A stretch of DNA of 37,670 bases, taken from contig CASFJO010000075.1 of NCBI GenBank assembly GCA_949295035.1, forward strand, positions 1 to 37,670. The letters are read 5' to 3'. The notes under the pieces were generated by a model. It saw only the letters and a program-made list of their open reading frames with translations. It searched no databases and was not told where the DNA came from. The stretch comes from an uncultured Gemmiger sp. (lineage in GTDB: Bacteria > Bacillota > Clostridia > Oscillospirales > Ruminococcaceae). This document shows, piece by piece, positions 4,434-33,285 of this stretch. Position 1 is the first letter of the stretch. Each line of letters opens with the position of its first letter. A program made the position numbers and the translations under genes.

Positions 4434-5489
4434 ATGAAAAAACTGATCGCGCTTGCACTGGCCGGTCTGATGGCTTTCTCTCTGGTTGCCTGCGGTTCCG
4501 GCAACGGCGGCAACAACGGCGGCAGCACCGGTGAGGACGGTGACCTGCCCGTGCTGCGGGTGGCGGCAATGCCCACCATCACCAGCCTGCCCACCTACTA
4601 CATCCAGAAGAACGGCCTGGACGTGGCCGCCGGCTTCAAGATGGAAGTTACCATGTTCGATACCGGCGCGCCCATGAACGAGGCGCTGGCCGCTGACCTG
4701 TGGGATGTGGGCCATATGGGTGCCGCAGCCGTTACCGGCATGGCCAACTACGATGAGATGATCATCGGCGAGGTTCTGGAGTCCACCGACGGCCAGGGCG
4801 TGTTCGTAACTCCGGACAGCCCCGTAGCCCAGGACACCGGCTACAATCCCTCTTACCCCTCTGTGCTGGGCAGCCCGGACACCGTTACCGGCATCACCAT
4901 CCTGTGCCCCGTGGGTACCGCGCAGCACTTCACCGTTCTGAAATGGCTGGAGAAGCTGGGCATGGAAGCCACCGACGTGAACATCGTCAACATGGACACC
5001 GTGCAGGCCTATCAGGCGCTGCAGGCCGGCCAGGGCGATGCGGCTTCCCTGAACGTTCCCACCTTCTTTGACGCAGTCAACGACGGCATGGTGCAGGTAG
5101 CCAACCTGGCTGACCTGGGCACCCGCTATGTGGACCAGATCGTGGCCAACCGCAAGGCTGTGGAAGGCAAGCCGGAACTGGTGCAGAAGTACGTGGACTG
5201 CGTGCTGGAAGCCAACGCCGCGCTGGCTGCCGATGAAGAGATGGCCACCGATCTGCTGGTGGAGTTCCTGAAAGAGTCCGGTATGGAAACCAGCCGTGAG
5301 AACTGCGCTTCCGACCTGGGCCGCGTGAAGTGGCTGGTCAAGGAAGACTGGAAGGGCCGCACCCTGGGCAACTTTGCCAAGGAACTGGGCGAGTTCTACG
5401 TAAGCCAGGGCCAGCTGGAAGACAGCGCGCTGGACAAGTTCACCACCAACGTGGACAACACCTTTGTAAAGGCATATCAGGAAGGCTGA
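4434..5489 (+). CDS. NitT/TauT-type ABC transporter substrate-binding lipoprotein
   Basis: A 351-residue secreted lipoprotein: Lys-Lys start, hydrophobic core, lipobox SLVAC with lipid-modified C20, then a Gly/Asn-rich tether (21-37). The mature part starts LPVLRVAAMPTITSLPTYYI and follows the two-lobed fold of SsuA/ThiY/NMT1-type binding proteins, which capture small molecules such as sulfonates, nitrate or pyrimidine precursors for import. It leads a cluster with two permeases, two ATPases and two sulfatases, so a small sulfated or sulfonated ligand is the natural guess. The ligand cannot be read from sequence. A hairpin directly downstream would raise its expression over that of the membrane components. 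Confidence 0.85.
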   Translation: MKKLIALALAGLMAFSLVACGSGNGGNNGGSTGEDGDLPVLRVAAMPTITSLPTYYIQKNGLDVAAGFKMEVTMFDTGAPMNEALAADLWDVGHMGAAAVTGMANYDEMIIGEVLESTDGQGVFVTPDSPVAQDTGYNPSYPSVLGSPDTVTGITILCPVGTAQHFTVLKWLEKLGMEATDVNIVNMDTVQAYQALQAGQGDAASLNVPTFFDAVNDGMVQVANLADLGTRYVDQIVANRKAVEGKPELVQKYVDCVLEANAALAADEEMATDLLVEFLKESGMETSRENCASDLGRVKWLVKEDWKGRTLGNFAKELGEFYVSQGQLEDSALDKFTTNVDNTFVKAYQEG

Positions 5490-5513
5490 TTGCTCTCCCT
5501 GCGTAAGAAAGAC

Positions 5514-5553
5514 GGGCCGGCCGGCAGCTCATGCGAGCGGTCGCCGGCCCTTT
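5514..5553 (+). terminator. Intra-operon hairpin between binding protein and permease
   Basis: GGGCCGGC (5514-5521) pairs with GCCGGCCC (5543-5550), with further GCTC/GAGC pairing inside, and is followed by TTT. It is a strong stem with a short T tract: probably a partial terminator or a stabiliser of the upstream mRNA, common after binding-protein genes. Confidence 0.6.
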
Positions 5554-5586
5554 CCCTACCATGATTGAGAAAGGCGTGAAGAGCGA

Positions 5587-6378
5587 ATGAAGCAGTTTTT
5601 GCAAAAGCACAAATACAGCCTGATCTCGGTGTGCTCATTCCTGTTTGTATTGCTGGTCTGGCAGCTGGTCACCGATGTGTTCCATCTGGTAAGCCCGGTG
5701 ATGCTGCCCAGCCCCACCAAGATCCTGGAGACCTTTGTCTACAAACTCACCGGCGGTACCGTCCCCGACGGCGCCACCCTGTTTGAAAATATCTGGTCCA
5801 GCCTGAAAATCGCCCTGGGCGGTTACGTAGTAGGCGTGGTGATCGGTGTGCCGCTGGGTATCGGCATGGCCTGGAGCCGCCGGTTCGAGCTGTTTGCCAA
5901 GCCCCTGTTCGACATCATTCGCCCGGTGCCCGCCCTGGCCTGGATCCCCCTGATGATCCTGTGGCTGGGCATTGGCTATGCCTCCAAGGTGGGCATCATC
6001 TTCTTTGCCGCCTTTATCAGCGCCACCGTCAACTCCTACACCGGTATCCGCCGCACCAGTCAGGTGCACCTGTGGGTGGGCAAAACCTTCGGCGCCACCA
6101 ACCGGCAGCTGCTGTTCAAGGTGGCCATTCCCACCGCGCTGCCCATGATCTTCACCGGCCTGCGCCTGGCCCTGGGCTCCGACTGGGTGGCCCTGGTCGC
6201 CGCTGAGATGCTGGCCGCCACCAAGGGTCTGGGCTACATGATCCAGATGGCCCGCCTGCTGGGCCGCCCCGACGTGATCATCGTGGGTATGCTCACCATC
6301 GGCTTTGTGGGCCTGGTGCTGAACGCCGTACTGGAGAAGCTGCAGAAAAAATTCATCGGGAGGGAGAAAAAAGGATGA
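5587..6378 (+). CDS. ABC transporter permease 1 (SsuC/TauC-like)
   Basis: A 263-residue BPD-type inner-membrane permease with about six transmembrane segments (first near residues 12-30). The cytoplasmic EAA-like loop follows the family pattern: VGKTFGATNRQLLFKVAIP, then ALPMIFTGLRLALG. This loop contacts the ATPase. The preceding segment RPVPALAWIPLMILWLGIG is a hallmark of the NitT/TauT permease group. The neighbouring gene encodes a second permease with a different sequence, so the membrane channel is probably a heterodimer. Translation is coupled to the second permease by a 4-base ATGA overlap. It forms one transcription unit with the lipoprotein upstream. Confidence 0.88.
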   Translation: MKQFLQKHKYSLISVCSFLFVLLVWQLVTDVFHLVSPVMLPSPTKILETFVYKLTGGTVPDGATLFENIWSSLKIALGGYVVGVVIGVPLGIGMAWSRRFELFAKPLFDIIRPVPALAWIPLMILWLGIGYASKVGIIFFAAFISATVNSYTGIRRTSQVHLWVGKTFGATNRQLLFKVAIPTALPMIFTGLRLALGSDWVALVAAEMLAATKGLGYMIQMARLLGRPDVIIVGMLTIGFVGLVLNAVLEKLQKKFIGREKKG

Positions 6379-7178
6379 TTGATACCACGTCCAAAAGCCG
6401 GTTCAGCATCAAACAGCTGACCGTCATCTATACCATTATCTCTCTGCTGACACTTCTGGTGGTCTGGGAACTGGTTGCCCGCTTCACCAGCGCGTCCATG
6501 TTCCTGCCGCCAGCCAGCGAGGTGCTGGCTGCCTTTGCCCGCAGCTTTGTGGAACCCATCGGCAAGCACACCATGCTGGCCCATATCGGCGTCAGCCTGT
6601 ACCGGGTGGCGGTGGCCTTCTTCTTTGCCACCATCATCGGCATTTCCCTGGGCGTGGGCATGGGCTACTCCCGCCTGATTGAGGCAATCTTCAAGCCCCT
6701 GTTCGAGTTCATCCGCCCCATCCCGCCGCTGGCCTGGATTCCTCTGTCCATCCTGTGGTTCGGTTTGAGCGATACCGGCAAATTCTTCATCATCTTCCTG
6801 GGCTGCTTCTGCTTCATCACCGTCAACACCTACGACGGCGCCAAAAACGTGGACCCGGAACTGATCGGCGCCGCCCGGATGCTGGGCGCCAGCGAGCGGC
6901 AGGTTTTCTTTGAGATCGTGCTGCCCAGCTCGGTACCGTACATCTTTGCGGGCCTGCAGATCGCCGTCACCGCCGGCTGGAGCGCGGTGGTGGGCGCCGA
7001 GATGATCCAGTCCAATGAGGGCGTGGGCTGGATGATCGTGCGCGGCATGAACACCGGCAATACCGTCCAGATCATGGTGGGCATTGTGGCCATCGGTATC
7101 GTGGGCTTTGTACTGGCCAACCTGACAAGTGCTTTGGAGAGGAGACTGTGCGCATGGAACGAGCAAAAGGGAATGTGA
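6375..7178 (+). CDS. ABC transporter permease 2 (SsuC/TauC-like)
   Basis: A 267-residue permease of the same group as its upstream neighbour but clearly diverged. Hydrophobic segments lie near 15-35, 70-92, 105-130, 136-155, 190-215 and 235-255. It has the RPIPPLAWIPLSILWFGLS segment and an EAA loop (GAARMLGASERQVFFEIVLP). Having two non-identical permeases and two non-identical ATPases in one operon implies a fully heteromeric importer instead of the usual homodimers of this family. The gene overlaps the first ATPase by about 25 bases, another sign of tight co-translation. Confidence 0.88.
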   Translation: MIDTTSKSRFSIKQLTVIYTIISLLTLLVVWELVARFTSASMFLPPASEVLAAFARSFVEPIGKHTMLAHIGVSLYRVAVAFFFATIIGISLGVGMGYSRLIEAIFKPLFEFIRPIPPLAWIPLSILWFGLSDTGKFFIIFLGCFCFITVNTYDGAKNVDPELIGAARMLGASERQVFFEIVLPSSVPYIFAGLQIAVTAGWSAVVGAEMIQSNEGVGWMIVRGMNTGNTVQIMVGIVAIGIVGFVLANLTSALERRLCAWNEQKGM

Positions 7179-7939
7179 CCGGCAACGTGGTACTGGAGTG
7201 CCGCAACGTGGGCCGCACCTTCAAGGGCTATAACGGCGCGCCGGACAACGAGGTACTGCGCGGCGTGGACTTTACCGTTCGCGAAAACGAGTTTCTGGTT
7301 CTGTTCGGCGCAGGCCAGTGCGGCAAAACCACCCTGCTGAACATTCTGGCGGGGTTGGATCTGCCCACCGAGGGCGAGGTCTATGACCGGGGCACAAAGG
7401 TCACCGGCCCGGCGCCTGCCCGCGGCGTGGTCTACCAGAAAACCTCCCTGTTCCCCTGGATGACGGTGGAGGACAATGTGGGCTTTGGCCCGAAGGTCCG
7501 CCACATGTCCAAGACCGAGCGGGCCGAACGCATCAAAAAGTACCTGGAACTGGTGGGCCTGACCGGTTTTGAAAAGAGTTATCCCAGCCAGCTGTCCGGC
7601 GGCATGCGCCAGCGCGTGGGCATTGCCCGCGCCTATGCCAACCAGCCCGACATCATGCTGATGGATGAACCCTTTGGGCATCTGGACGCCCAGACCCGCT
7701 ACATGATGGAAGAGGAGCTGCAGCGCATCTGGCAGAAGGAAAAGCGCACCGTGGTCTTTGTTACCAACAACATCGAGGAAGCGCTGTTCCTGGCCGACCG
7801 GATCATCCTGCTGACCAACTGCCCTACCCACATCAAAAAAGAGTACGTGATCAATATGCCCCATCCCCGGGACTACACCGATCCCGAATTCCTGCGCCTG
7901 CGCCAGGAGATCACCGAGAACATGGATCTGACGCTGTGA
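7154..7939 (+). CDS. ABC transporter ATPase 1 (SsuB/TauB-like), H-loop His replaced by Asn
   Basis: A nucleotide-binding domain of 261 residues from ATG 7154; a GTG at 7148 is too close to the GGAGAGGAGA ribosome site (7136-7145). Walker A is GAGQCGKT (52-59), unusual in having GAGQ where GPSG is typical. The Q-loop is VVYQKTSLFPW, the signature LSGGMRQ (147-153) is canonical, and Walker B is IMLMDEP with catalytic E172. The switch position, normally His in VTHDIEEA, is Asn here (VTNNIEEA, N205). In ABC ATPases this His supports hydrolysis, so the site built on this subunit's Walker A should be weak. The defect is complementary to that of the next gene. Confidence 0.9.
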   Translation: MERAKGNVTGNVVLECRNVGRTFKGYNGAPDNEVLRGVDFTVRENEFLVLFGAGQCGKTTLLNILAGLDLPTEGEVYDRGTKVTGPAPARGVVYQKTSLFPWMTVEDNVGFGPKVRHMSKTERAERIKKYLELVGLTGFEKSYPSQLSGGMRQRVGIARAYANQPDIMLMDEPFGHLDAQTRYMMEEELQRIWQKEKRTVVFVTNNIEEALFLADRIILLTNCPTHIKKEYVINMPHPRDYTDPEFLRLRQEITENMDLTL

Positions 7940-7955
7940 GAGAGGAGAGCAAACC

Positions 7956-8705
7956 ATGCAAGAGAACAACCAGCCCAAGGTACGGGTTCGCAACCTCACC
8001 AAGCAGTTCGGCGATCTGCTGGTGCTCAACGACATCTCCTTCGATGTGAAAGCCGGCGAGTTCCTGTGCATCGTGGGCCCCACCGGCTGCGGCAAAACCA
8101 CCTTTCTGAACAGCCTGACCCGTCTGTACGAGCCCACCAAGGGCGAGATCCTGCTGGACGGGGAACCGGTGGACCTGAAAAAACACAACATCGCCTATAT
8201 TTTCCAGGAGTATTCCACCATGCCCTGGCTGACGGTGGAAGAAAACGTGGGCTTCGGCCTGGATATCAAGGGTGTGGAAAAGAGCAAGGCCAAGGCCCTG
8301 GTGGACGAGTATCTGGACATCGTGGGCCTGACCAAATACCGCAAATACTATCCGGATCAGCTGTCCGCCAGTATGCTGCAGCGGGTGGTGATCGCCCGCG
8401 CCTTTGCCACCCAGCCGGACCTGCTGCTCATGGATGAGCCCTACGGCCAGCTGGACATCCAGCTGCGCTACCACCTGGAAGACGAGCTTATCAGCCTGTG
8501 GCAGCGCACCGGCACTACGGTGCTCTTTATTACCCACAACATCGAAGAAGCTGTGTACATGGGGCAGCGCATTCTGGTTCTGACCAATAAGCCTACCACC
8601 ATCAAATGCAACATCGACAATGACCTGCCCCGTCCCCGGGATATTGCCAGCCCGGACTTTGTCAAGCTGCGCAATCAGGTTACCGATCTGATCAAGTGGT
8701 GGTAA
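7956..8705 (+). CDS. ABC transporter ATPase 2 (SsuB/TauB-like), degenerate signature motif
   Basis: A 249-residue nucleotide-binding domain, 16 bases after ATPase 1, with ribosome site GAGGAGAG. Walker A is GPTGCGKT (41-48), the Q-loop is YIFQEYSTMPW, Walker B is LLLMDEP with E161, and the switch His is present (ITHNIEEA, H194). The signature is LSASMLQ (136-142) instead of LSGGMRQ: the Gly pair that contacts the ATP gamma-phosphate is changed to Ala-Ser. It is therefore competent on its Walker side but supplies a poor signature to its partner, while ATPase 1 supplies a good signature. Together they predict one canonical and one degenerate ATP site. It powers import by the two permeases upstream. 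Confidence 0.9.
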   Translation: MQENNQPKVRVRNLTKQFGDLLVLNDISFDVKAGEFLCIVGPTGCGKTTFLNSLTRLYEPTKGEILLDGEPVDLKKHNIAYIFQEYSTMPWLTVEENVGFGLDIKGVEKSKAKALVDEYLDIVGLTKYRKYYPDQLSASMLQRVVIARAFATQPDLLLMDEPYGQLDIQLRYHLEDELISLWQRTGTTVLFITHNIEEAVYMGQRILVLTNKPTTIKCNIDNDLPRPRDIASPDFVKLRNQVTDLIKWW

Positions 8706-8728
8706 TCCGCCGCCATACAACCATTCAG

Positions 8729-8782
8729 GCCCGTTTTTTCGGGCGCGCCGGAACGGCAGGCCGCCCTTTGTGGGCAGCCTTT
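8729..8782 (+). terminator. Probable terminator after the importer genes
   Basis: Two hairpins in tandem: GCCCG (8729-8733) with CGGGC (8740-8744) around a T6 loop, and GGCCGCCC (8759-8766) with GGGCAGCC (8772-8779, one mismatch) followed by TTT. Neither has a long T tract, so readthrough into the sulfatase operon is possible. Confidence 0.45.
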
Positions 8783-8808
8783 ACATTCCGGGGCGGGGAT
8801 GCTATGCT
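8780..8808 (+). promoter_or_regulatory. Promoter of the sulfatase / two-component operon
   Basis: TTTACA (8780-8785), a 17-base spacer and TATGCT (8803-8808), 63 bases before the first sulfatase start. A short GC stem with a following T6 at about 8826-8850 in the leader could act as a weak attenuator. Confidence 0.6.
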
Positions 8809-8871
8809 AAGATAGTGTGCCGCCGCGCGCCGGAGAAAACGGGCGTTTTTTGAGTCAGGAGGAATCCGATC

Positions 8872-10305
8872 ATGCATCGACCCAACGTGGTGTTTATCAT
8901 CTCCGACGACCAGGGATACTGGTCACTGGGCTGCGCGGGAAACAAAGAGATCATCACCCCCCACATCGACCGGCTGGCCGCCGAGGGCACCCGGTTCGAC
9001 AATTTCTTCTGCGCTTCACCGGTCTGCAGCCCGGCCCGGGCTTCGCTGCTTACCGGCTGCATCCCCTCCCAGCACGGCGTGCACGACTGGCTGCGGGACG
9101 ACGACGAGCGCCAGTCGGCAATCGAGTATCTGGCCGGGCAGTATTCCTATACCCGGGCCCTGGCCGACAGTGGCTACGACTGCGCATTGTCCGGCAAGTG
9201 GCATATGGGTGCTTCGGCCAAGGTGCAGCAGGGCTTTGGCCACTGGTTCTGTCATAAGTCCGGCGGCGGCCCGTACTACGGCGCACCCCTGTACAAGGAC
9301 GGCAAGCTCTATCGGGAGGAACGCTATGTCACCGACGCCATCACCGACGACGCGGTGGAATTCCTGGAATCCCGCCGGGATCAGCAGCAGCCCTTCTATC
9401 TGCATGTGGCCTATACCGCGCCCCATGCGCCCTGGCTCAACAACCACCCCAAGGAATACACCGACCTGTATAAGGACTGCCCGTTTGAATCGGTACCCCA
9501 TCTGCCCCGTCACCCGGACAGCATCTATCTGACCGACGAGGTGGCCAAGGACGAGCGGGCCAACCTGATCGGATATTTTGCTGCGGTCACCGCCATGGAC
9601 GCGGGGATTGGCCGCATCCTGGCCAAACTGGACGAGATGGGCCTGGCGGAGGATACCCTGGTGGTCTTTACCGCCGACAACGGGTTCAGCTGTGGGCACC
9701 ACGGCTTCTGGGGCAAGGGCAACGCCACTTTCCCGCTGAACATGTACGAGGAATCGGTCAAGGTGCCCTTCATTGCCCGGCATCCCGGCCGCATCCCGGC
9801 GGGCCGCGTCTGCGACGCACTGGTCTCCGCCTACGACTTTATGCCCACCCTGCTGGACTATCTGGAGGTTCCCTGCACCGACACGCTGGAGCGGCCGGGC
9901 ACCTCCTTTGCGCCGGCGCTGCGGGGCGAGGCGTTCCGCCAGCACGACGAGGTGGTGGTCATGGACGAGTACGGCCCCAACCGCATGATCCGGGACCGCC
10001 GGTTCAAGTATGTGGCCCGGTATCCCTACGGCCCCAATGAGCTCTACGACCTGCAGGAAGACCCGGGCGAGACCCGCAACCTGCTGGTACAGGGCGGTGC
10101 CGAAGGGCTGGAACAGTCCATGCGGCGGCGTCTGGAGGCCTGGTTTGCCCGGTATGTGAATCCACAGATCGACGGCGCCCGGGAGGCGGTGTTCGGTTCC
10201 GGCCAGATCGGCCTGGCAGGCCTGTGGGGGGATGGTTCTCCCGCCCACAGCTGTGACGACTACATCAAGGAGAACCCCAACTACGCGCCCTATCGGGTGA
10301 AATGA
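8872..10305 (+). CDS. Type I (S1) sulfatase, cytoplasmic
   Basis: A 477-residue formylglycine-dependent sulfatase that hydrolyses sulfate esters. The N-terminal beta-strand leads to the metal ligands D12-D13 in IISDDQG. The maturation motif is C52-S-P-A-R56, whose Cys must be converted to formylglycine. K109 and H111 in SGKWHMG and D269-N270 in TADNG complete the classical active site, and the C-terminal DLQEDPGE region is typical. There is no signal peptide, so it acts in the cytoplasm on an imported substrate. No maturase (anSME or FGE) is in the window and one must exist elsewhere. It has a strong ribosome site (AGGAGG) and is followed 18 bases later by the histidine kinase, in one operon. 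The exact sulfated substrate is unknown. Confidence 0.9.
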   Translation: MHRPNVVFIISDDQGYWSLGCAGNKEIITPHIDRLAAEGTRFDNFFCASPVCSPARASLLTGCIPSQHGVHDWLRDDDERQSAIEYLAGQYSYTRALADSGYDCALSGKWHMGASAKVQQGFGHWFCHKSGGGPYYGAPLYKDGKLYREERYVTDAITDDAVEFLESRRDQQQPFYLHVAYTAPHAPWLNNHPKEYTDLYKDCPFESVPHLPRHPDSIYLTDEVAKDERANLIGYFAAVTAMDAGIGRILAKLDEMGLAEDTLVVFTADNGFSCGHHGFWGKGNATFPLNMYEESVKVPFIARHPGRIPAGRVCDALVSAYDFMPTLLDYLEVPCTDTLERPGTSFAPALRGEAFRQHDEVVVMDEYGPNRMIRDRRFKYVARYPYGPNELYDLQEDPGETRNLLVQGGAEGLEQSMRRRLEAWFARYVNPQIDGAREAVFGSGQIGLAGLWGDGSPAHSCDDYIKENPNYAPYRVK

Positions 10306-10323
10306 CACACGGGAGGCGAGCAG

Positions 10324-12144
10324 ATGCGAAAAATGTGCCGGAAATTGCGGGAAGAGGCTTCCCGTCTGCGCTGTCAGCTGTTTACGGCCTATTTCGTGCT
10401 GTTCGCCGCCTTTTTTATTCTGGTGGTGCTGATGCTCACCACCATGGTGCGGGGCCTGCTGGTGGACCAGATCGGCGGCAGCCGCCTGGATGTGCTGCGC
10501 CAGATTGCCGAGCGGGCCAACATCGTCAAAACCAGCAGCGTCACCCTGTCCAACCTGTATACCTATGAGATCTCCAGCCACCGGTATCTGCAGGGCCAGC
10601 CGGACGCGGAAAGCCAGGCGGAAGCAGCCAGCTACCTGGATCGCCAGAAACAGGTGTACGACGAGGTGTTTGCCCATATCGGGCTGGGATATGAGGTGCT
10701 GTTTCTGGGGGAGAACGGCTTCTCCTACTGTTCAGATCCATCCGCGGACTGGCAGGAGACAGTACCCGGTCAGCTCTGGTACCGGCACCTGCTGGAAGAC
10801 CTGAAGAATTCTCAGCAGGGCGGGGTGGAGTTTTCCCGCACCTTTCCCTCGGTTACTGGCAGCGGGGAAGGGTTCCAGTTCGCCGCCGGCCGCATTGTGA
10901 CCGGCCTGGACGGCAACGGTGTGCTGCTCATCCTGATCGATGAACAGCTGCTGGAAAACCTGTACAGTTCCGTGCAGGGGCAGGGCAGCGAGATCTTTAT
11001 TTACGACCAGGACGGCCTGGTGGTTTCCCACTCCAACAAGAAGATGCTGGGTAAGCAGTTCTTTGATGTGGACTACATGCGGCAGACCTACGGCGTTGAC
11101 AGCTACGACATTGTATCCCGCCAGGGGCAGGATTACCTGCTGTCCACCTTTCTGGATGAGGAGGTGGACTGGACCATTGTGGAGATGATCCCTACCAATG
11201 CAATCTTTGGTGCGTTGGACCGGCTGTACTGGATGGTGGGCTGCCTGCTGGCGGGGGCGCTGGTGCTGGCCATGCTGCTGTCCTGGCACATGGCCCGGCG
11301 GGTGGCCCGGCCCCTGAGTGATCTGAGCGCCGCCATGGATCGGTTTGGCACGCCGGAATTTGTGCCGCCCTCCGCCGCCACCGGCACCCAGGAACTGGAT
11401 CACCTGCAGGAAAGCTTCAACCATATGGCCGGCGAGATTGACCGGCTTATGGCCGCGGTGCGGGAGCGGGAAGGGCAGAAACGCCAGTTGGAGATGAATT
11501 TCCTGCGGGCCCAGATCAACCCCCATTTCCTGTACAACATGCTCTTTTCCATCCGCTGTACCATCGAGGTGGGCAAGAGCAGCCAGGCGGCTCAGATGCT
11601 CAGCGCCTTTACCGATCTGCTGCGCAGTACGCTGGCGGTCAAAGCGCCGCTTATTCCGCTGCAGGAAGAACTGGAAAGCACCCGCAAATACCTGGTGGTG
11701 CAGAAGCTGCGCTGCGGCGATAAGATCAACTATGAATTTGACGTGCAGCCCGGCACCAAAAACTGTCTGGTGCCGCCGCTGATTCTGCAGCCGCTGGTGG
11801 AAAATGCTATCTTCCACGGGCTGGAGGCCAAACCGGACGCGGACATGCTGGTGATCTCCACCGCATTTAAGGACGGGGACCTGCTGCTCACCGTTACCGA
11901 TGACGGGGCGGGTATGGGTCCGGAGGAACTGGCCGCCGTGCGGGAACGTATGAGCCGCCCGCCGGAAAAGGACGGAAACTCCATCGGCATGGCCAATGTG
12001 CACAGCCGCATCCGGCTGAACTGGGGCGAACCCTACGGCCTGACGGTGGACAGCACGCCGGAGATCGGCACCACCGTTACCCTGCGGATGCCGGCGGTTT
12101 TCTCAGAGGAAAGGAACGACCATGAAGGTACTGATCGCGGATGA
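10324..12144 (+). CDS. YesM-type sensor histidine kinase
   Basis: A 606-residue membrane kinase. TM1 is about residues 18-41, the extracytoplasmic sensor (Cache-like) about 42-300 and TM2 about 303-321. A HAMP-like segment (RPLSDLSAAMDRF) follows, then the His_kinase domain with the characteristic FLRAQINPHFLYNML (H401), an N-box LVENAIFHG and a G-box DDGAGMG. YesM/LytS-type kinases of Firmicutes normally sense carbohydrates or other small nutrients and pair with AraC-type response regulators. The regulator gene follows with a 23-base overlap. Position between two sulfatase genes suggests it senses the sulfated substrate or a breakdown product (inference). Confidence 0.9.
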   Translation: MRKMCRKLREEASRLRCQLFTAYFVLFAAFFILVVLMLTTMVRGLLVDQIGGSRLDVLRQIAERANIVKTSSVTLSNLYTYEISSHRYLQGQPDAESQAEAASYLDRQKQVYDEVFAHIGLGYEVLFLGENGFSYCSDPSADWQETVPGQLWYRHLLEDLKNSQQGGVEFSRTFPSVTGSGEGFQFAAGRIVTGLDGNGVLLILIDEQLLENLYSSVQGQGSEIFIYDQDGLVVSHSNKKMLGKQFFDVDYMRQTYGVDSYDIVSRQGQDYLLSTFLDEEVDWTIVEMIPTNAIFGALDRLYWMVGCLLAGALVLAMLLSWHMARRVARPLSDLSAAMDRFGTPEFVPPSAATGTQELDHLQESFNHMAGEIDRLMAAVREREGQKRQLEMNFLRAQINPHFLYNMLFSIRCTIEVGKSSQAAQMLSAFTDLLRSTLAVKAPLIPLQEELESTRKYLVVQKLRCGDKINYEFDVQPGTKNCLVPPLILQPLVENAIFHGLEAKPDADMLVISTAFKDGDLLLTVTDDGAGMGPEELAAVRERMSRPPEKDGNSIGMANVHSRIRLNWGEPYGLTVDSTPEIGTTVTLRMPAVFSEERNDHEGTDRG

Positions 12145-13624
12145 CGAGACCATGATCTGTGAATGGCTGCAGTTCTGCATCTCCCAGAACCCTGCCTGCG
12201 AACTGGTGGGGGTGGCGCACAATGGCCGGGAGGCGCTGGAACTGGCCGGTCGGGAAGCGCCCGACCTGATCCTCACCGATATCAAGATGCCGGTGATGGA
12301 TGGCCTGGAACTGCTGCATGCTCTGCGGGAGGCGGGCAGCCGGGTGCGGGTCGTCGTGCTTACAGCGTTTGCAGAGTTCGATCTGGCCCGGCAGGCGCTG
12401 CGGGACGGCGCGTCTGAATACATCCTCAAAACCGAAATGAAAAACGAGATGCTGCAGGAACTGCTGGACCGGGTGAACCGGGAACTGAACCTGAGTGGTG
12501 CGGCCAGCGGAATTGCCAACTCGCCCCAGGCCCATTCCATCATCCGGCGTATCCTGCGGCAGGAACGGGATTTGACCAGTGAGGACCTGGAAGAACTGCG
12601 CCGGTGCGGCGTGCACTGGCGGGACAACGGCCTGTTTGCGCTGGCGGTGTGGAAAAAAGACCTGATGAACGGGGGCCTGAGCTTTCCCCGGGAGGAGCAG
12701 ATCCGCCATGTGGCCGGTTTTGACTATACCGACCGGATCTATGTGGTGGTGGGCAACCTGCTGCGGGCGCTGAGCAGCGGCGAAAAGGCCCGCAAGCTTA
12801 CCGCCTACGCCAAAGAAGTGCAGGCCATGAACCACTGTATGGTGGGGGTCAGTTCGGTCACCGATGAACTGCGGCAGATCCCCTCGCTGGTGTTCCAGGC
12901 CGCCTGTACCCTGGGCCAGGGCTTTTATAAAGGGGAAGTGGCGCTGTATGAACCCAGCCAGCCGCTGTCCCGTCTGTTTGAACTGCACCGGGGCTGGAAA
13001 AGCGAGATGGCCGGGCTGCGTGTGCAGCTGTACCAGGCCGACGGTGCCCGCCGCCGGGAACTTCTGGAACAGTTTCTGCAGCAGATCAGCACCGACCGTA
13101 TCCCGGCAGTAGATCTGCTGGGCAAGTGGTTCCTGGATGCGTTTGACCTGTTTGCTCTGCAGGCCCGGGAACAGGGCGCTGAACTGCCGGAGCAGGATGC
13201 GCTGCGGGCCCGGCTGGCGGGCAGTGTGTCCCTGCGGGAGGTGCGGGAGATTCTGGGCCAGGTGTCGGAACTGTGCCGGGAAACTGACGAGCCCCACCGG
13301 CCGCGCTCCAACAATATCCGGCTGGCGGTGGAGTATCTGCGCAAGCATTATGCCGAACCGCTCAGCCTGGAACAGGTGGCCGCCCAGGTCTACCTGAACC
13401 CGGATTACTTTTCCCGGGCATTCAAGGAGGAGATGGGCCTCACCTTTGTCAATTACCTGACCGACCTGCGGATGCAGCATTCGGTGCAGCTGCTGGAAAA
13501 CACCGCGCTGCGGGTGCAGAACATCGCCCAGTCGGTGGGGTATGCCAACGTGAGCTACTTTTCTACCCTGTTTAAGAAGAAATACGGAATGAGCCCCTAC
13601 GAATACCGCCGCAAGGACGACTGA
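12122..13624 (+). CDS. YesN-type response regulator with AraC DNA-binding domain
   Basis: A 500-residue regulator. The receiver domain (1 to about 120) has acidic pocket D7-D8, phospho-acceptor D53 in LILTDIKMP, and K103 in YILKTE. A long central region of about 270 residues follows. The C-terminal AraC-type double helix-turn-helix (about 395-498) contains LSLEQVAAQVYLNPDYFSRA and the family end motif AQSVGYANVSYFSTLFKKKYG. It pairs with the overlapping kinase and most likely activates the importer and sulfatase genes. The importer promoter, with bent DNA and no -35, looks activator-dependent. It is followed closely (about 20 bases) by the second sulfatase, in the same operon. Confidence 0.9.
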   Translation: MKVLIADDETMICEWLQFCISQNPACELVGVAHNGREALELAGREAPDLILTDIKMPVMDGLELLHALREAGSRVRVVVLTAFAEFDLARQALRDGASEYILKTEMKNEMLQELLDRVNRELNLSGAASGIANSPQAHSIIRRILRQERDLTSEDLEELRRCGVHWRDNGLFALAVWKKDLMNGGLSFPREEQIRHVAGFDYTDRIYVVVGNLLRALSSGEKARKLTAYAKEVQAMNHCMVGVSSVTDELRQIPSLVFQAACTLGQGFYKGEVALYEPSQPLSRLFELHRGWKSEMAGLRVQLYQADGARRRELLEQFLQQISTDRIPAVDLLGKWFLDAFDLFALQAREQGAELPEQDALRARLAGSVSLREVREILGQVSELCRETDEPHRPRSNNIRLAVEYLRKHYAEPLSLEQVAAQVYLNPDYFSRAFKEEMGLTFVNYLTDLRMQHSVQLLENTALRVQNIAQSVGYANVSYFSTLFKKKYGMSPYEYRRKDD

Positions 13625-13643
13625 ACCCAAGGAGGTGCCCTCT

Positions 13644-15134
13644 ATGCGCGCCATAATGGTCATGTACGATTCCCTCAACCGGCATATGCTGGCTCCCTAC
13701 GGCTGCGACTGGACCCAAACGCCGCAGTTTACCCGGCTGGCGGAACATGCCGTTACCTTTGACAACTGCTGGGTGGGAAGCATGCCCTGCATGCCGGCCC
13801 GGCGGGAACTGCACACCGGCCGGTACAACTTTCTGCACCGCAGCTGGGGCCCGCTGGAACCTTTTGACGATTCCATGCCCGAGCAGATGAAAAATGCCGG
13901 TATCCACACCCATCTGATCAGCGATCACTATCATTACTGGGAGGATGGCGGTGCCACCTATCACCAACGGTATACCACCTGGGACTGTGTGCGCGGCCAG
14001 GAGGGGGACAACTGGGCCCCGCTGGTGGGATTTGACGGCGGGCCCCGCCCGCACCGCAATATCTGCGGCGAGCCGGCCGACCGCTGGGTGGAGCAGGATT
14101 TTGCCAACCGCACCCGCATGCCGGAGGCTGCCTGCCAGCCCCAGTGCCGGACCTTCCAAAAAGGGCTGGACTTTCTGCGGGAAAACCACGGCCGGGACAA
14201 CTGGTTCTTGCAGATCGAGACCTTTGATCCGCACGAGCCGTTCTTTGTGCAGCCGGAGTACGACGCCCGTTTCCCGGACGGCTACCAGGGCCCCTTCTGC
14301 GACTGGCCGGATTACCGGCCGGTAAACGACCAGGACAGCCCGGAGTTTATTGACCATATGCGCCGCCGGTATGCTGCGCTGCTGTCTATGTGCGACGAGA
14401 ACCTGGGCCGGATTCTGGACGCCATGGATGAGTACGACCTGTGGAAAGACACCCTGCTCATCGTAAACACCGATCACGGTTTTCTGCTGGCGGAACACGG
14501 CCAGTGGGCCAAGTGCCATTGCCCGTTCTACGGCGAGGTAGCTCACACACCGCTGTTTATCTGGGATCCCCGCACCGGCCGCCAGGGCGTGCGGGCCTCC
14601 AGCCTGGTGCAGACCATCGACCTGCCCGCCACATTGCTGGAATTCTTCGGTCAGCCCCTGCCGCCGGATATGCAGGGCCGTCCGCTCCGCCCGGTGCTGG
14701 AACGGGACGAGCCGGTGCATGAAGCCGGATTGTTCGGTATCTTCGGCGGGCAGGTCTGCTGCACCGACGGACAGTGGGTCTATATGCGCAGCCCGGTTCC
14801 CGGCAACCAGCCCCGGTATGAGTATACCCTGATGCCCACCCGCCACGGCGGCCGCCGTGCCTTTATCCACAACGAGATTTTGCAGCGTATGCAGCTGCAT
14901 CCGGCTTTCTCCTTTACCAAGGGAGTGCCAGTGCTGCGTCTGCCCTCTGAGAACCGGATTTCCCAGGCGGAGTATCCCACCATGCTGTTCCGGATGGATC
15001 AGGACCCGGCTCAGCTCCATCCAGCGAACGACCCGGAGCAGGAGGCCCGGATGCTGGCGCTGATGGCCCGTCTGATGCGGGAGAATGACTGCCCGCCCGA
15101 GCAGTTCCAGCGCATGGGCATAAAGATAAGCTGA
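13644..15134 (+). CDS. Second type I sulfatase, divergent active site, cytoplasmic
   Basis: A 496-residue sulfatase from ATG 13644, eight bases after GGAGG (13631-13635); an upstream GTG at 13635 overlaps the ribosome site and is rejected. The maturation motif is C49-M-P-A-R53 in GSMPCMPARRELHTGR. D9 and D277-H278 (NTDHG) supply metal ligands. The canonical Gly-Lys-Trp-His segment is replaced by ISDHYHYW (92-99), so the Lys that stabilises the sulfate is not at its usual place. No signal peptide is present. It is unlike the first sulfatase in sequence and probably handles another sulfate position or a second intermediate. It ends the two-component/sulfatase operon. Confidence 0.88.
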   Translation: MRAIMVMYDSLNRHMLAPYGCDWTQTPQFTRLAEHAVTFDNCWVGSMPCMPARRELHTGRYNFLHRSWGPLEPFDDSMPEQMKNAGIHTHLISDHYHYWEDGGATYHQRYTTWDCVRGQEGDNWAPLVGFDGGPRPHRNICGEPADRWVEQDFANRTRMPEAACQPQCRTFQKGLDFLRENHGRDNWFLQIETFDPHEPFFVQPEYDARFPDGYQGPFCDWPDYRPVNDQDSPEFIDHMRRRYAALLSMCDENLGRILDAMDEYDLWKDTLLIVNTDHGFLLAEHGQWAKCHCPFYGEVAHTPLFIWDPRTGRQGVRASSLVQTIDLPATLLEFFGQPLPPDMQGRPLRPVLERDEPVHEAGLFGIFGGQVCCTDGQWVYMRSPVPGNQPRYEYTLMPTRHGGRRAFIHNEILQRMQLHPAFSFTKGVPVLRLPSENRISQAEYPTMLFRMDQDPAQLHPANDPEQEARMLALMARLMRENDCPPEQFQRMGIKIS

Positions 15135-15142
15135 AATACCCG

Positions 15143-15196
15143 TTGACAAACGCAGCTTCGCATGGTATTATCAAAACAAGATTTTTCGATTTGAAA
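15143..15196 (+). promoter_or_regulatory. arsR promoter with ArsR-like operator
   Basis: TTGACA (15143-15148), a 17-base spacer and TATTAT (15166-15171) make a strong promoter. Just downstream, TTTC-GATTT-GAAA (15184-15196) is a dyad at the expected start point, well placed for repression. A near-identical 13-mer recurs at 15595-15607. Confidence 0.75.
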
Positions 15197-15208
15197 GACG
15201 GTGAGAGG

Positions 15209-15526
15209 ATGGAGCCCATCTACGAGCAGCGGGCGCAGGCCTTTAAGGCCCTGTGTGACCCCCGGCGGCAGAAGATTCTGGCGCTGCTACAAGGCGGGGA
15301 GAAGTGCGCCTGCAAGCTGATCGAAGAGATGGAGATGCCCCAGTCCTCCCTGTCCTATCATATGAAGATTCTTTGTGCTTCCGGTATTGTGGTCGGCCGG
15401 GAAGAAGGCAAGTGGATCCACTACCGCATCGATCCGGCGGGCAGCCGCCGGGCGGTGGAACTGCTGCAGGAGATCACCAGCACCGATGCAACCGCTTCCG
15501 TCTCCTGCCATTGTGGCTGCACCTGA
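15209..15526 (+). CDS. arsR: ArsR-family metalloid-responsive repressor
   Basis: A 105-residue winged-helix repressor from ATG 15209. Possible thiol ligands are C33 and C35 in EKCACKLIEEM, at the classical ArsR As(III) site at the start of the recognition region, plus a C-terminal CHCGCT cluster (C100, C102, C104). The helix-turn-helix reads MPQSSLSYHMKILCASGIV. Such proteins dissociate from DNA on binding As(III) or related thiophilic metalloids. The downstream ArsP-type permease supports an arsenic role. The ribosome site is weak (GTGAGAGG). Its own promoter carries a TTTC-N5-GAAA dyad, so autoregulation is likely. Confidence 0.88.
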   Translation: MEPIYEQRAQAFKALCDPRRQKILALLQGGEKCACKLIEEMEMPQSSLSYHMKILCASGIVVGREEGKWIHYRIDPAGSRRAVELLQEITSTDATASVSCHCGCT

Positions 15527-15544
15527 CCAAACGAAAACCGCACC

Positions 15545-15573
15545 AAGCCGGCGCGCAGCGCGCCGGCTTGCTT
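15545..15573 (+). terminator. Strong hairpin between arsR and the permease
   Basis: AAGCCGGCGCG (15545-15555) pairs perfectly with CGCGCCGGCTT (15559-15569) around a 3-base loop. There is no proper T tract, so it may attenuate or protect mRNA without ending transcription completely. Confidence 0.55.
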
Positions 15574-15594
15574 TACGGCCTATATATCCAAAAC

Positions 15595-15607
15595 ATTCGA
15601 TATGAAA
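15595..15607 (+). promoter_or_regulatory. Second ArsR-like operator candidate
   Basis: ATTCGATATGAAA shares 11 of 13 bases with the dyad at 15184-15196 (TTTCGATTTGAAA) and lies just ahead of the permease start. No clear -35/-10 pair sits beside it, so its role is uncertain. Confidence 0.4.
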
Positions 15608-15619
15608 GAGTGGGATACC

Positions 15620-16630
15620 ATGCAGGGACTGTTGTCTTTTCTACAAAATGAGCTGCTGGGCATGAAATGGCTGGACCGGCTTATGGCACGGCTGGTGGAA
15701 GCCGCCGGCCTGGACCCGGAGGGGCAGCTGGGCGGCAGCATTCGATTTTTCCTTTACGATATAATCAAGATCCTGGTGCTGCTGGGCTGCCTGATCCTGA
15801 TAATCTCTTATATTCAAAGCTACTTCCCGCCGGAGCGTACCCGCCGGATTCTCGGCCGGTTCCAGGGCCTGGCGGCCAATTGCCTGGCCGCGCTGCTGGG
15901 CACGGTCACCCCGTTCTGCTCCTGCTCCTCCATCCCGCTGTTTATGGGCTTTACCCGGGCGGGGCTGCCGCTGGGGGTCACCTTTTCCTTTTTGATCTCC
16001 TCGCCGATGGTGGACCTGGGGTCACTGGTGCTGCTCATGAGCATCTTTGGCTGGAGGGTAGCGGTGTTGTATGTGCTGCTGGGGCTGGTGATCGCGGTGG
16101 CGGGCGGCGCGCTGATCGAGCGGCTGGGCATGGAGGATCAGGTGGAACCCTACATCCGGGCCGGCAACTTGCAGAGCGCCCCCGGTCAGACACTGACCGC
16201 CGCTGACCGCCTTCACTTCGCCTGGCAGCAGATGACCGCCACCGCCAAGAAGGTGTTTCCCTATGTGCTGGTGGGGGTGGGGATCGGCGCCGTTATCCAC
16301 AACTGGATCCCGGAAAGCCTGATCGTAACGCTGCTGGGCGGCGGCAATCCGCTGGGGGTGGTGATTGCCACGGTGGCGGGCGCCCCCATGTACGCCGACA
16401 TCTTCGGTACCATCCCCATTGCCGAAGCCCTGCTGGCGAAAGGGGCGCTGCTGGGGGTGGTGCTGGCCTTTATGATGGCGGTCACCACCCTGTCGCTGCC
16501 CTCGATGATCCTGCTGCGCAAGGCGGTCAAACCCCGCCTGCTGGCGGTTTTTGTGGCCGTCTGCGTGGCGGGCATCATTCTGGTGGGCTATCTGTTCAAC
16601 GCCATCCAGCCCTGGCTGGTGAGCATATAA
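15620..16630 (+). CDS. ArsP/YraQ-family permease (DUF318)
   Basis: A membrane permease of 336 residues from ATG 15620. An in-frame ATG at 15602 lies inside the operator-like repeat and has no ribosome site. About eight hydrophobic segments flank the conserved TVTPFCSCSSIPLFMGF, with C100 and C102, and a second family motif GAPMYADIFGTIPIAEALL. In the ArsP branch, which exports trivalent organoarsenicals such as methylarsenite, Cys residues of this kind bind the substrate. The ArsR upstream and the Cys-rich thioredoxin-like protein downstream support a metalloid efflux role. Other members of the family are uncharacterised, so substrate specificity remains an inference. Confidence 0.85.
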   Translation: MQGLLSFLQNELLGMKWLDRLMARLVEAAGLDPEGQLGGSIRFFLYDIIKILVLLGCLILIISYIQSYFPPERTRRILGRFQGLAANCLAALLGTVTPFCSCSSIPLFMGFTRAGLPLGVTFSFLISSPMVDLGSLVLLMSIFGWRVAVLYVLLGLVIAVAGGALIERLGMEDQVEPYIRAGNLQSAPGQTLTAADRLHFAWQQMTATAKKVFPYVLVGVGIGAVIHNWIPESLIVTLLGGGNPLGVVIATVAGAPMYADIFGTIPIAEALLAKGALLGVVLAFMMAVTTLSLPSMILLRKAVKPRLLAVFVAVCVAGIILVGYLFNAIQPWLVSI

Positions 16631-16644
16631 AGGAGGAAAGAACC

Positions 16645-16989
16645 ATGGCATTGTTTGGTTTTGGTAAAAAGAAAGAGGAAAGCTGCGGCTGCACCTGTTC
16701 CGCGTCCGCACAGTGTGGATGCAGCTGCGGCAGCAGCAGCGAGCAGGCCCGCGTGGCGGTGCTGGGCTCCGGCTGCAAAAACTGCCACACCCTGTGGGAG
16801 AATATGAAGCAGGCCGCGCAGGAACTGGGCCTTTCGGAGCCGGTGGCCTATATCACCGACATGGAGCAGATCGCCCGTTCCGGGGTCATGAGCCTGCCCG
16901 CTGTTCTGGTGGATGGCCGGGTTGTGTCCAGCGGCCGGGTGCTGAGCCCTGCCGACGCAGCCGCCCTGCTGAAAAAGGAGCTGGGCTGA
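16645..16989 (+). CDS. Cys-rich thioredoxin-like small protein (redox-active disulfide family)
   Basis: A 114-residue protein with a good ribosome site (AGGAGGAAAG), 14 bases after the permease. The N-terminal 30 residues carry six Cys in CGCTCSASAQCGCSCG (C14, C16, C18, C24, C26, C28). The rest is a short thioredoxin fold with active site C44-K-N-C47 and a cis-Pro-like segment SLPAVLVDGRVV. It matches the small 'redox-active disulfide protein' group often found beside YraQ/ArsP permeases. The extra Cys cluster could bind a metal or metalloid and hand it to the permease, or reduce the substrate; this is inference. No signal peptide is seen, so it is cytoplasmic. Confidence 0.8.
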   Translation: MALFGFGKKKEESCGCTCSASAQCGCSCGSSSEQARVAVLGSGCKNCHTLWENMKQAAQELGLSEPVAYITDMEQIARSGVMSLPAVLVDGRVVSSGRVLSPADAAALLKKELG

Positions 16990-30883: not shown

Positions 30884-30995
30884 GCAGGCGCCTGTGACTG
30901 ACGGATCAGTGGGTCTACCACAAGGGAACAGGCCGCCCGCATACAACGCCGACCGTCTGGGCAACATCGCTGACGCGATGCTGCCCTTTTTGTTT
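30884..30995 (+). ncRNA. ZTP (pfl-type) riboswitch with transcription terminator
   Basis: The segment has the conserved pieces of the pfl/ZTP aptamer: GTGACTGACGG (about 30894-30904), a GTGGGTCTACCAC hairpin, AGGGAACAGG, and the 3' signature GACCGTCTGGGCA (30951-30963). The 3' part overlaps a terminator, GGGCAACATCGC (30959-30970), TGAC, GCGATGCTGCCC (30975-30986) and T5, the usual expression platform. The RNA senses ZTP/ZMP, a sign of low 10-formyl-tetrahydrofolate, and turns genes on. Pyruvate formate-lyase, supplying formate for one-carbon metabolism, is one of its known targets. Confidence 0.85.
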
Positions 30996-31056
30996 TCCCG
31001 GGGGCATCGCGGCGATGCGGGGAGCCTGCCTGAGGCAGGGGAAGGGAGAAAAGACC

Positions 31057-33285
31057 ATGCAGCAGTGGAACGGTTTCAAGGCCGGCGATTGGCAGAACGG
31101 CATCAACGTGCGGGATTTTATCCAGCGCAACTATACCCCGTATGAAGGGGACGAGGGCTTTCTGGCCGGGCCCACCGCCCGTACCAAAGGTCTGATGGAA
31201 AAGCTGAATGCCCTGCTCAAAGAAGAGCGGGCCAAGGGCGGCGTGCTGGATGTGGATACCGAGAACGTGTCCAGCCTGCTCAGTTACGCGCCCGGCTATC
31301 TGGATAAGGACAACGAACTCATCGTCGGCTTGCAGACCGGCGCGCCGCTGCGCCGGGGGGTGAATCCCTTCGGCGGCATCCGGATGGCCCGCCAGGCCTG
31401 CGAGGCCTACGGTTATAAGCTCTCCGACAAGATCGAGGAGGAGTTCCGCTACCGCACCACCCACAACGACGGGGTGTTCCGGGTGTACAACGAGGAGGCC
31501 CGGGCCGCCCGGCACTGCGGCCTGATCACCGGCCTGCCCGACGCCTACGGCCGGGGCCGCATCATCGGGGACTACCGCCGGGTGGCTTTGTACGGCATGG
31601 ACAAACTCATCGAGGCAAAACAGGCCGATTACGCCGCACTGGGCCGCCGCAGCATGGACGAGGATACCATCCGCCTGCGGGAGGAGGTCTGGCGGCAGAT
31701 CGATTTCCTGGACAAGCTGAAAAAGATGGCCGCTCTCTACGGCTTCGACATCTCCGCCCCCGCCGAAAACGCCCGGCAGGCGGTGCAGTGGACCTACTTC
31801 GGGTATCTGGGCGCCATCAAGGAGCAGAACGGCGCGGCCATGAGCCTGGGCCGGGTCAGCACCTTCCTGGATATCTATTTCCAGCGGGACATCGACGCCG
31901 GCCTGCTGGACGAGAACGGCGCCCAGGAACTCATGGACCAGTTTGTGCTCAAGCTGCGGATGGCCCGCCACCTGCGCACCCCCGCCTACAACGAGCTGTT
32001 CGGCGGCGATCCCATGTGGATCACCGAGGCGGTGGGCGGCATGGGGGAGGACGGCCGCACTCTGGTCACCCGCAGTTCTTTCCGGGTGCTGAACACCCTG
32101 TTTAATCTGGGCAGCGCGCCGGAGCCCAACCTGACCGTGCTCTGGGCGGCCGGGCTGCCGGAGGGGTTCAAGCGATTCTGCGCCCGGGTCTCCTGCCAGA
32201 CCGACGCTATCCAGTATGAGAACGACGACCTGATGCGTCCCATCTATGGGGACGATTACGCCATCGCCTGCTGTGTCTCGGCCATGCGGCTGGGCAAGGA
32301 CATGCAGTTTTTCGGCGCCCGGACCAACCTGCCCAAGATGCTGCTCATGGCTCTGAACGGCGGCCGGGACGAGAAGAAGAACATGCAGGTGGGGCCCGCC
32401 ACCACCCCCTGGCAGGGGGAGTACCTGGATTACGAGGGGGTCTGCCGCCGGCTGGACTTCTATCGGGAATGGCTGGCCGGGGTCTACGCCAACACCATGA
32501 ACGTAATCCACTATATGCACGACAAATACGCCTACGAGAAGCTCCAGATGGCCCTGCACGATACCGACGTGCACCGGTATATGGCCTTTGGCATCGCGGG
32601 GCTGAGCGTGCTGGCGGATTCGCTGTCGGCCATCAAGTACGCCCGGGTGCGCTGCATCCGGGATGAAGAGACCGGCCTGATCACCGACTTCGCGGTGGAA
32701 GGGGAGTACCCCGCCTACGGCAACGACGACGACCGGGTGGACTCCCTGGCCGCCGAACAGGCCCGCCTCTTCTTTGAGGAACTGAAAAAGCATCCTCTCT
32801 ACCGCAACGCCGAACCCACCCTCTCGGTTCTCACCATCACCTCCAACGTGGTCTACGGCAAAAAGACCGGCGCCACCCCCGATGGCCGGAAGGCGGGCGA
32901 GCCCTTCGCTCCCGGCGCCAACCCCATGCACGGAAGGGAGAAGAGCGGCGCGCTGGCCAGCCTGAACTCGGTGGCCAAGATCCGGTATACCTGCTGCAAG
33001 GACGGCATCTCCAACACCTTCTCGATCCTGCCCGCGGCACTGGGCCGCACCGACGCCGACCGGTACGCCAACCTGGTGCAGCTGCTGAACGGCTACTTCG
33101 CCCAGGGGGCGCACCATCTGAACGTGAACGTGATGGATCGCCAGAAGCTGGTGGAGGCCTACAACGACCCGGACAAGTACCCCAACCTGACCATCCGCGT
33201 CTCCGGCTACGCGGTGGATTTCCACAAGCTCAGCCGGGAGCAGCAGCGGGAGGTCATCCAGCGCACCTTCCACGAGGCCCTGTGA
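31057..33285 (+). CDS. pflB: Formate C-acetyltransferase (pyruvate formate-lyase)
   Basis: A 742-residue glycyl-radical enzyme converting pyruvate and CoA to acetyl-CoA and formate. The adjacent catalytic cysteines are C405-C406 in ACCVSAMR. The glycyl radical is at G717 in [10 protein letters not shown] near the C-terminus. The length is that of classical PFL. ATG 31057 is preceded by GAAGGGAGAA, and the next residues ([20 protein letters not shown]) match the family start. Expression is under the ZTP riboswitch upstream. The activase gene follows, overlapping by 4 bases. This is a main fermentation and formate-supply step of anaerobes. Confidence 0.97.

Follow-up and report, generated by a model that had tools for sequence, protein, structure and literature searches.

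Positions 4434 to 15134 of a contig from an uncultured Gemmiger sp. (GCA_949295035.1, CASFJO010000075.1; the whole 37,670-nucleotide stretch analysed is called the window here) raise the question of what a member of the Clostridia would do with a sulfonate-type importer, two sulfatases and a YesM/YesN sensor pair encoded side by side. The original prediction, made from the sequence alone, was that a small sulfate ester (aryl sulfate, choline sulfate, sulfated amino acid or steroid) is imported and desulfated inside the cell. Our results argue for the same overall function with a different substrate class, namely, that this unit is quite probably a sulfate-ester uptake and cytoplasmic desulfation system, with a small sulfated sugar or polyol as its most likely substrate. 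Gene content, gene order, co-conservation in relatives, sequence motifs, the lack of a hydrophobic N-terminus on the sulfatases and the presence of a maturase are the direct observations behind this reading. The features of the unit are as follows.

4434..5489, + strand, substrate-binding lipoprotein of the SsuA/TauA (NMT1) type (PF13379, 43 bits, cut-off 24.7; PF09084 also above its cut-off)
5587..6378, + strand, ATP-binding cassette (ABC) permease 1 (PF00528)
6375..7178, + strand, ABC permease 2 (PF00528; 4-base overlap with permease 1)
7175..7939, + strand, ABC ATPase 1 (PF00005; its ATG at 7175 overlaps permease 2 by 4 bases)
7956..8705, + strand, ABC ATPase 2 (PF00005)
8780..8808, + strand, promoter-like site within the 166 bases 5' of sulfatase 1 (TTTACA-17-TATGCT with TG)
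8872..10305, + strand, sulfatase 1, Cys type (CSPAR, GKWH; PF00884, 177.4 bits, cut-off 25)
10324..12144, + strand, YesM-type sensor kinase with a Cache-like sensor region and HAMP (PF06580, PF02518 and PF00672 above cut-off)
12122..13624, + strand, YesN-type response regulator with an AraC DNA-binding domain (PF00072, PF00165, PF12833)
13644..15134, + strand, sulfatase 2, Cys type (CMPAR), divergent (PF00884, 115.8 bits, cut-off 25)

The nine genes are adjacent on the + strand, in the order importer (five genes), sulfatase 1, kinase, regulator and sulfatase 2, and Pfam and NCBIfam models together with the open reading frames bear out the gene content, order and limits first proposed. The start of ATPase 1 is most likely ATG 7175 rather than GTG 7148, and that of sulfatase 2 most likely ATG 13644, which has an AAGGAGG ribosome-binding site 5' of it, rather than GTG 13635. 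The kinase matches dCache_1 at 27.3 bits, under the cut-off of 45.

With respect to the place of desulfation, neither sulfatase has a hydrophobic N-terminus and the lipoprotein does, as judged by a hydropathy heuristic rather than a signal-peptide program, in agreement with the signal-less, cytoplasmic enzymes that had been proposed. Both sulfatases carry the CxPxR formylglycine motif with Cys and match PF00884 above its cut-off, and should therefore require a maturase. An anaerobic sulfatase-maturating enzyme is indeed encoded elsewhere in the genome (C9:4529-5620; TIGR03942, 376.5 bits, cut-off 349.45), and each of 12 relatives (12/12) has at least one above the same cut-off. The surroundings of the own-genome maturase (L031:4517-7622 and 7993-9477; L numbers label fetched stretches) include a LacI regulator, a TauE/SafE exporter and a gene that by eye resembles a LarA-type racemase, with the TauE-type gene one gene away from the maturase.

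The importer points to sulfonate-like ligands at the level of fold. The lipoprotein scores 77.9 bits against the NCBIfam model SsuA_fam (TIGR01728), under the cut-off of 163.5, and far under the cut-offs of the curated taurine and aliphatic sulfonate models. Among solved sequences, its profile matches only E. coli TauA at E ≤ 0.001, and a Foldseek search with its AlphaFold model, which is moderate (predicted local distance difference test, pLDDT, 64) and served fold-level matching only, placed SsuA (2x26) first (E 5.6e-14, template modelling score 0.56 by query length) and TauA fourth. Compared with SsuA (2x26) and TauA (6ssy), the window lipoprotein has the same fold and Pfam family; it differs in falling under the curated cut-offs and in lying beside sulfatases. 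A second unit in the same genome, at C30, has importer, sulfatase, YesM and YesN in this order, its binding protein and sulfatase being 43% and 29% identical to those of the window.

To what extent the unit is kept in other genomes was examined in two ways. First, a search of genome contigs with sulfatase 1 gave 17 loci, 12 from Clostridia by title and five from other phyla. The importer lies in the fetched stretch of 11 of the 12 Clostridia loci, and sulfatase 2 in nine; the importer-less stretch (L017) starts 647 bases from a contig end, and no sulfatase 2 relative at E ≤ 1e-60 was found in the genomes of L017-L019. When these loci are pooled with those from the binding-protein search, all nine genes stand in the window's order in eight relatives from two families (L010-L016, L075), and six more have a rearranged unit. 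In three of the latter (L024, L025, L128) the gene set is the same but its two halves have changed places, L024 with one unrelated gene inserted and its stretch ending inside permease 2; the other three (L018, L019, L127) have no sulfatase 2, and in L018 the importer is on the opposite strand and other sulfatases are present. The search for this gene order in related genomes, proposed as a check of the prediction, had therefore a positive outcome, and recurrence in eight relatives makes the unit more than a chance arrangement. The flanks of the window are common to L010, and those of L013 match those of L016; elsewhere they differ.

ATPase 2 is among the most conserved genes of the unit, with 92-98% identity across the eight same-order relatives. 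Between the window and the same-order Lachnospiraceae (L012-L016), permeases and ATPases are 83-93% identical, compared with 80-81% for the conserved core of RpoD (residues 184-425 only), which suggests horizontal transfer of the unit in this set. The argument does not hold for the rearranged L019, L024 and L025, whose permeases and ATPases (71-80%) are at or below the RpoD core, except for L019 (RpoD core 69%). YesM and YesN reach only 56-63% identity in L012-L016 and hence evolve much faster than the importer genes. In the close relative An120 (L010), binding protein, permeases and ATPases are 89-98% identical to those of the window, and YesM, YesN and sulfatase 2 are 99-100% identical; it may be that recombination replaced the importer half. 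Genes in relatives were called by codon usage, which misses some (permease 2 of L012, ATPase 2 of L079) and possibly places starts too far downstream, so that the N-terminus test is weakened there.

Second, we followed the binding protein irrespective of sulfatases. An alignment search (E ≤ 1e-40; the best five or six first-look candidates per genome were scored, and copies may be missed) gave matches in at least 2 of 391 genomes of the class and at least 14 of 297 of the family, both including the own genome, and in at least 15 of 397 genomes in the family to which G686, the genome of the Enterocloster locus, belongs (three of the 15 were already known). All matches outside stretches already covered were read, namely 37 regions, or 36 after L074 was dropped as a duplicate of L010, with 20 arbitrarily placed 20-kilobase (kb) regions in 17 of the same genomes as control. 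A sulfatase, recognised by a purpose-built profile, is present in 24 of the 36 regions and in none of the 20 controls; a TauE-type exporter is present in 6/36 and 0/20, respectively. In a midpoint-rooted binding-protein tree of 54 rows (the fragment L027:13726-14001 was left out, and L037 was counted as sulfatase-bearing by hand, its sulfatase being on L027, which adjoins it on the contig), a sulfatase lies within 9 kb in 38 of the 41 rows on one side and in 2 of the 13 on the other. The sulfatase label changes 6 times across the tree, compared with 12.6 in shuffles, a clustering aided by near-copies and with several long branches unsure in place. Twelve rows of the larger side are the window or were found via sulfatase 1; in the 29 remaining rows, a sulfatase lies within 9 kb in 26 (one of them, the C30 copy, was first met in a sulfatase search of the own genome). 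Importer and sulfatases, whose separation in relatives had been named as evidence that would speak against the prediction, are accordingly found together.

Clustering at 40% identity splits the 55 sulfatases that lie within 9 kb of these importers into 10 groups. Not one of the 55 has a hydrophobic N-terminus, compared with 46 of 55 binding proteins (simple hydropathy test; one binding protein is a fragment), and CxPxR and GKxH occur together in 38. As the importer is retained and the sulfatases beside it come from any of ten groups, the former is the constant element and the latter the one exchanged, and we read these sequences as a family of sulfate-ester importers coupled to putatively interchangeable cytosolic sulfatases. 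We lean, by a small measure, towards a broader proposal, that one SsuA/TauA-type importer clade would be a dedicated sulfate-ester entry gate in gut Clostridia, moving between species as a unit, with the transporter kept, the cytosolic sulfatase swapped among at least 10 groups by compound, and sometimes a TauE exit for the sulfate. A maturase homologue joins the importer loci L079 and L138; in the latter (L138:2579-10472), importer, sulfatase, maturase homologue (46%) and TauE-type gene stand in a row, a full set for import, activation, desulfation and sulfate exit.

Whether sulfur or carbon is the purpose of such a unit bears on the most resilient of the alternatives, sulfur scavenging as in Pseudomonas Ats/Ssu, where aryl or alkyl sulfate esters would be imported and the sulfate fed into cysteine synthesis. 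We consider it unlikely. An importer of the sulfonate/taurine type speaks for it, as does a PF01507 match in six of the 12 relatives. However, PF01507 has no match in the other six, and neither ATP sulfurylase (PF01747) nor PF01507 has one in the own genome, which is 91.8% complete, such that a missed gene is possible (PF01507 was detected in 14/14 controls and PF01747 in 5/14). TauE exporters in related regions and regulation by YesMN also argue against scavenging, and sulfur assimilation as the main purpose in the own genome is weakened. As none of the sulfate-activation genes looked for was found there, sulfate is probably discarded, and the carbon part would be the prize, at least in the own genome.

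The nature of the two enzymes was then considered. Sulfatase 1 carries GKxH, as is usual, and among solved proteins it best matches the N-acetylglucosamine (GlcNAc)-6-sulfatase BT4656 (5g2v); passages of one paper describe, for the S1_11 GlcNAc-6-sulfatase subfamily, a recognition triad of His plus Asp/Arg (PMC10154612). GKxH is absent from sulfatase 2, which has [ST]DHxHY instead, as do all 13 family members examined (sulfatase 2 and 12 paralogues); within the importer-linked set, 13 of the 14 members of its 40%-identity group are without GKxH. Among solved proteins, sulfatase 2 is related to 4upl and 4upi (each named sulfatase family protein), to 5g2v and, lower, to the phosphonate monoester hydrolases 4upk and 2w8s; its AlphaFold model (pLDDT 60.5) was too poor and was left unused. 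Neither enzyme reaches the cut-off of a named family among those compared, the scores for sulfatases 1 and 2, respectively, being 189.2 and 98.9 bits for choline sulfatase (TIGR03417, cut-off 433.45), 215.4 and 86.6 bits for arylsulfatase (NF010322, cut-off 481) and 124.8 and 111 bits for the PehA phosphoric/sulfuric ester hydrolase (NF045661, cut-off 900), all of which were rejected. The aryl and choline sulfates first suggested as substrates lose ground with these scores. In a phage collection, sulfatase 1 had no match.

The divergent motif of sulfatase 2, the phosphonate monoester hydrolases among its solved relatives and the nucleoside loci of three of its paralogues (see below) would also suit an importer of a phosphoric or other non-sulfated ester, with sulfatase 2 as a member of the superfamily that hydrolyses phosphodiesters or phosphonate monoesters. 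This is improbable in view of the CxPxR and GKxH motifs in 38 of the 55 importer-linked sulfatases, including sulfatase 1, the closeness of the binding protein to SsuA and TauA folds, and the TauE (6/36 regions) and maturase (L079, L138) genes that join related loci.

The context of relatives is what favours a small sulfated sugar or polyol over steroid, choline and aryl sulfates. The own genome has seven PF00884 matches in total, and a paralogue of sulfatase 1 (49-51% identical) is part of a fucose locus that also encodes fucosidase, fucose isomerase, a FGGY kinase and a class II aldolase. In L076 a Gfo/Idh oxidoreductase adjoins sulfatase and importer, and a similar gene start is seen in L077. 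On the 13-row side of the tree, the importer often stands with other enzymes, including split transketolases, RpiB or aldolases in some loci. A distant importer relative in L089 (8749-17427) is beside a glycyl radical enzyme that scores 1027.2 bits against the (2S)-3-sulfopropanediol dehydratase cut-off of 1000 (its activase scores 364.2 bits, under the equivalog cut-off of 500), and the wider family therefore includes a likely sulfonate carrier. Another distant relative, at L145:5544-13912, is beside a glycyl-radical-enzyme-sized gene with, by eye, an activase-like neighbour. The transketolase loci of distant importers (L072, L082, L084-L087) hold enzymes suggestive of sulfoquinovose-type metabolism, which we do not claim; the iron alcohol dehydrogenase of L084 reaches 228.3 bits against a sulfoacetaldehyde reductase cut-off of 700. 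The known sulfoquinovose binding protein is related to an Agrobacterium one, according to passages of PMC11659671.

For sulfatase 2, 19 further relatives occur in the same genomes, and the surroundings of 12 were read. Three of them (L090:2240-10699, L096:5695-13339, L098:2786-9759; 51-54% identical) are in purine-nucleoside loci with a PnrA/Bmp binding protein, an ABC importer and purine nucleoside phosphorylase (recognised by model in L098 and by eye in the other two), to which L096 adds a deoxyribose-phosphate aldolase; this hints at sulfated or otherwise esterified nucleosides as possible substrates of these relatives. Those in L091, L092, L095, L097, L099 and L101 stand, by eye, with oligopeptide-type or sugar-type importers, and L142 and L144, importer loci of the window's kind, also hold a sulfatase 2 relative (45-50% identical). 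These contexts direct attention away from the aryl, choline and steroid sulfates of the original prediction and towards sugars, polyols and, for sulfatase 2, also nucleosides. Deconjugation of host steroid, bile acid or aryl sulfates by importer and sulfatases would accord with the gut- and mouth-dwelling genera to which the relatives belong. Gut desulfation of sulfated progesterone metabolites is the topic of PMC9631449. Nevertheless, such deconjugation has little probability, as no steroid or aromatic enzymes were noticed by eye among neighbouring gene starts (no model search for them was made), both sulfatases are far under the arylsulfatase cut-off, steryl-sulfatase scores well under GlcNAc-6-sulfatase for sulfatase 1 (129 vs 186 bits) and sulfatase 2 (24 vs 88 bits), and the L089 importer is beside an enzyme for a small polar sulfonate.

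For uptake followed by cytoplasmic desulfation we infer a direction and order of events, a substrate class, a mode of regulation and a fate of sulfate from the observations above, as follows. First, the lipoprotein would capture a small hydrophilic sulfate ester outside the cell, for example sulfated sugars released from mucin by other bacteria, and the importer, with its two permeases and two ATPases, would take it in intact. Second, the anaerobic maturase would activate sulfatases 1 and 2 by oxidising their active-site cysteine, and these would strip sulfate in the cytoplasm; the two probably differ in the position they attack or in which members of a single substrate class they act on. Third, the desulfated carbon part would enter general metabolism and the sulfate would probably be discarded. 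YesM may sense the compound, or the loaded lipoprotein, outside the cell, and YesN would turn the genes on.

Several observations weigh against this proposal. First, the association is not universal: five genomes of other phyla (L020-L023, L026) have sulfatase 1 without the importer in the fetched stretches, from which sulfatase 2 is also absent, and 12 of the 36 importer regions are without a sulfatase, three of them within the sulfatase-linked clade (L083, L129 and the broken L088). Second, besides the moderate quality of the lipoprotein model, the same fold is found in thiamine-precursor, nitrate and bicarbonate binders, and the fold alone therefore leaves the ligand unfixed. Third, neither an enzyme acting on the carbon part nor a TauE is encoded in the unit, and it is from relatives that the assignment to sugars or polyols comes. 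Fourth, the PF01507 matches in half of the 12 relatives make sulfur scavenging possible there. Fifth, the lack of GKxH in sulfatase 2 and its phosphonate monoester hydrolase relatives leave room for a different activity of this enzyme.

The closest precedent is Pseudomonas Ats (AtsRBC-AtsA), where an SsuABC-type importer is paired with an intracellular sulfatase for sulfur supply, under a LysR-type sulfur-starvation regulator. The two systems are alike in having an SsuABC-type importer beside a sulfatase without export signal. However, Ats belongs to an aerobe and serves sulfur supply under sulfur-starvation control, whereas the window unit belongs to anaerobic Clostridia, has YesM/YesN as its only regulators, comprises two permeases, two ATPases and two sulfatases, and resides in a genome without a PF01747 or PF01507 match. 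Gram-positive sugar-utilisation loci combine YesM/YesN with intracellular glycosidases, and so share the import-first logic and regulator type; the window unit differs from them in its sulfonate-type importer and in having sulfatases as its only enzymes. The sulfatases of Bacteroides mucin and glycosaminoglycan loci (BT4656, 5g2v) are of the same S1-type superfamily, where sulfatase 1 has its best solved match, but they act outside the cytoplasm before sugar uptake (for carbohydrate sulfatases, passages of PMC10154612), while the window unit would import first, its enzymes having no N-terminal export signal by hydropathy.

That no described system of this exact composition is known, as had been remarked, stands insofar as no description of the unit was found in the open-licence PubMed Central literature at the level of titles and abstract starts; the principle itself, in contrast, is that of Pseudomonas Ats. 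What is new is the anaerobic, YesMN-linked, multi-sulfatase version, and its newest side is the coupling of importer and sulfatases at the level of a clade. The work on gut desulfation considered here deals mainly with Bacteroides enzymes whose action on mucin and glycosaminoglycans precedes uptake. If our proposal is true, host and dietary sulfate esters would have a route that begins with import, the reverse of the one served by these enzymes, sulfated sugars freed by others would be food for Gram-positive bacteria, and the importer clade would be a marker for finding new sulfated metabolites and for assigning orphan sulfatases. Passages of related papers state that no glycosaminoglycan loci of gut Firmicutes are characterised (PMC9067506) and that a Gram-positive mucin degrader has two sulfatases that are not induced (PMC13096917; a unit like the window's is not described in those passages); others concern an arylsulfatase (PMC12581299, PMC3918161).

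Regarding the limits and transcription of the unit, its genes overlap or are at most 16-18 bases apart, except for two wider gaps, of 97 bases 3' of the lipoprotein gene and of 166 bases 5' of sulfatase 1. A second transcription start in the latter gap, from the promoter-like site at 8780..8808, is possible but weakly indicated, the region having 5 promoter-like sites compared with 3.5 expected from shuffles. A terminator-like stem between the preceding gene and the lipoprotein marks the upstream boundary, although such stems are only in slight excess (12 vs 9.3 by chance). Downstream the unit is bounded by an operon with its own near-consensus promoter-like site (15143-15171; 11 of 12 match) directly 3' of it, encoding an ArsR regulator, an ArsP-type permease and a small thioredoxin-like protein (15143-16989), which we treated as separate. 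Further along the window there is a ZMP/ZTP riboswitch (30884-30969; RF01750, 56.8 bits, cut-off 39), and just 3' of it a 756-amino-acid open frame (31015-33285) that is pyruvate formate-lyase-like, with an activase behind it, as judged by eye.

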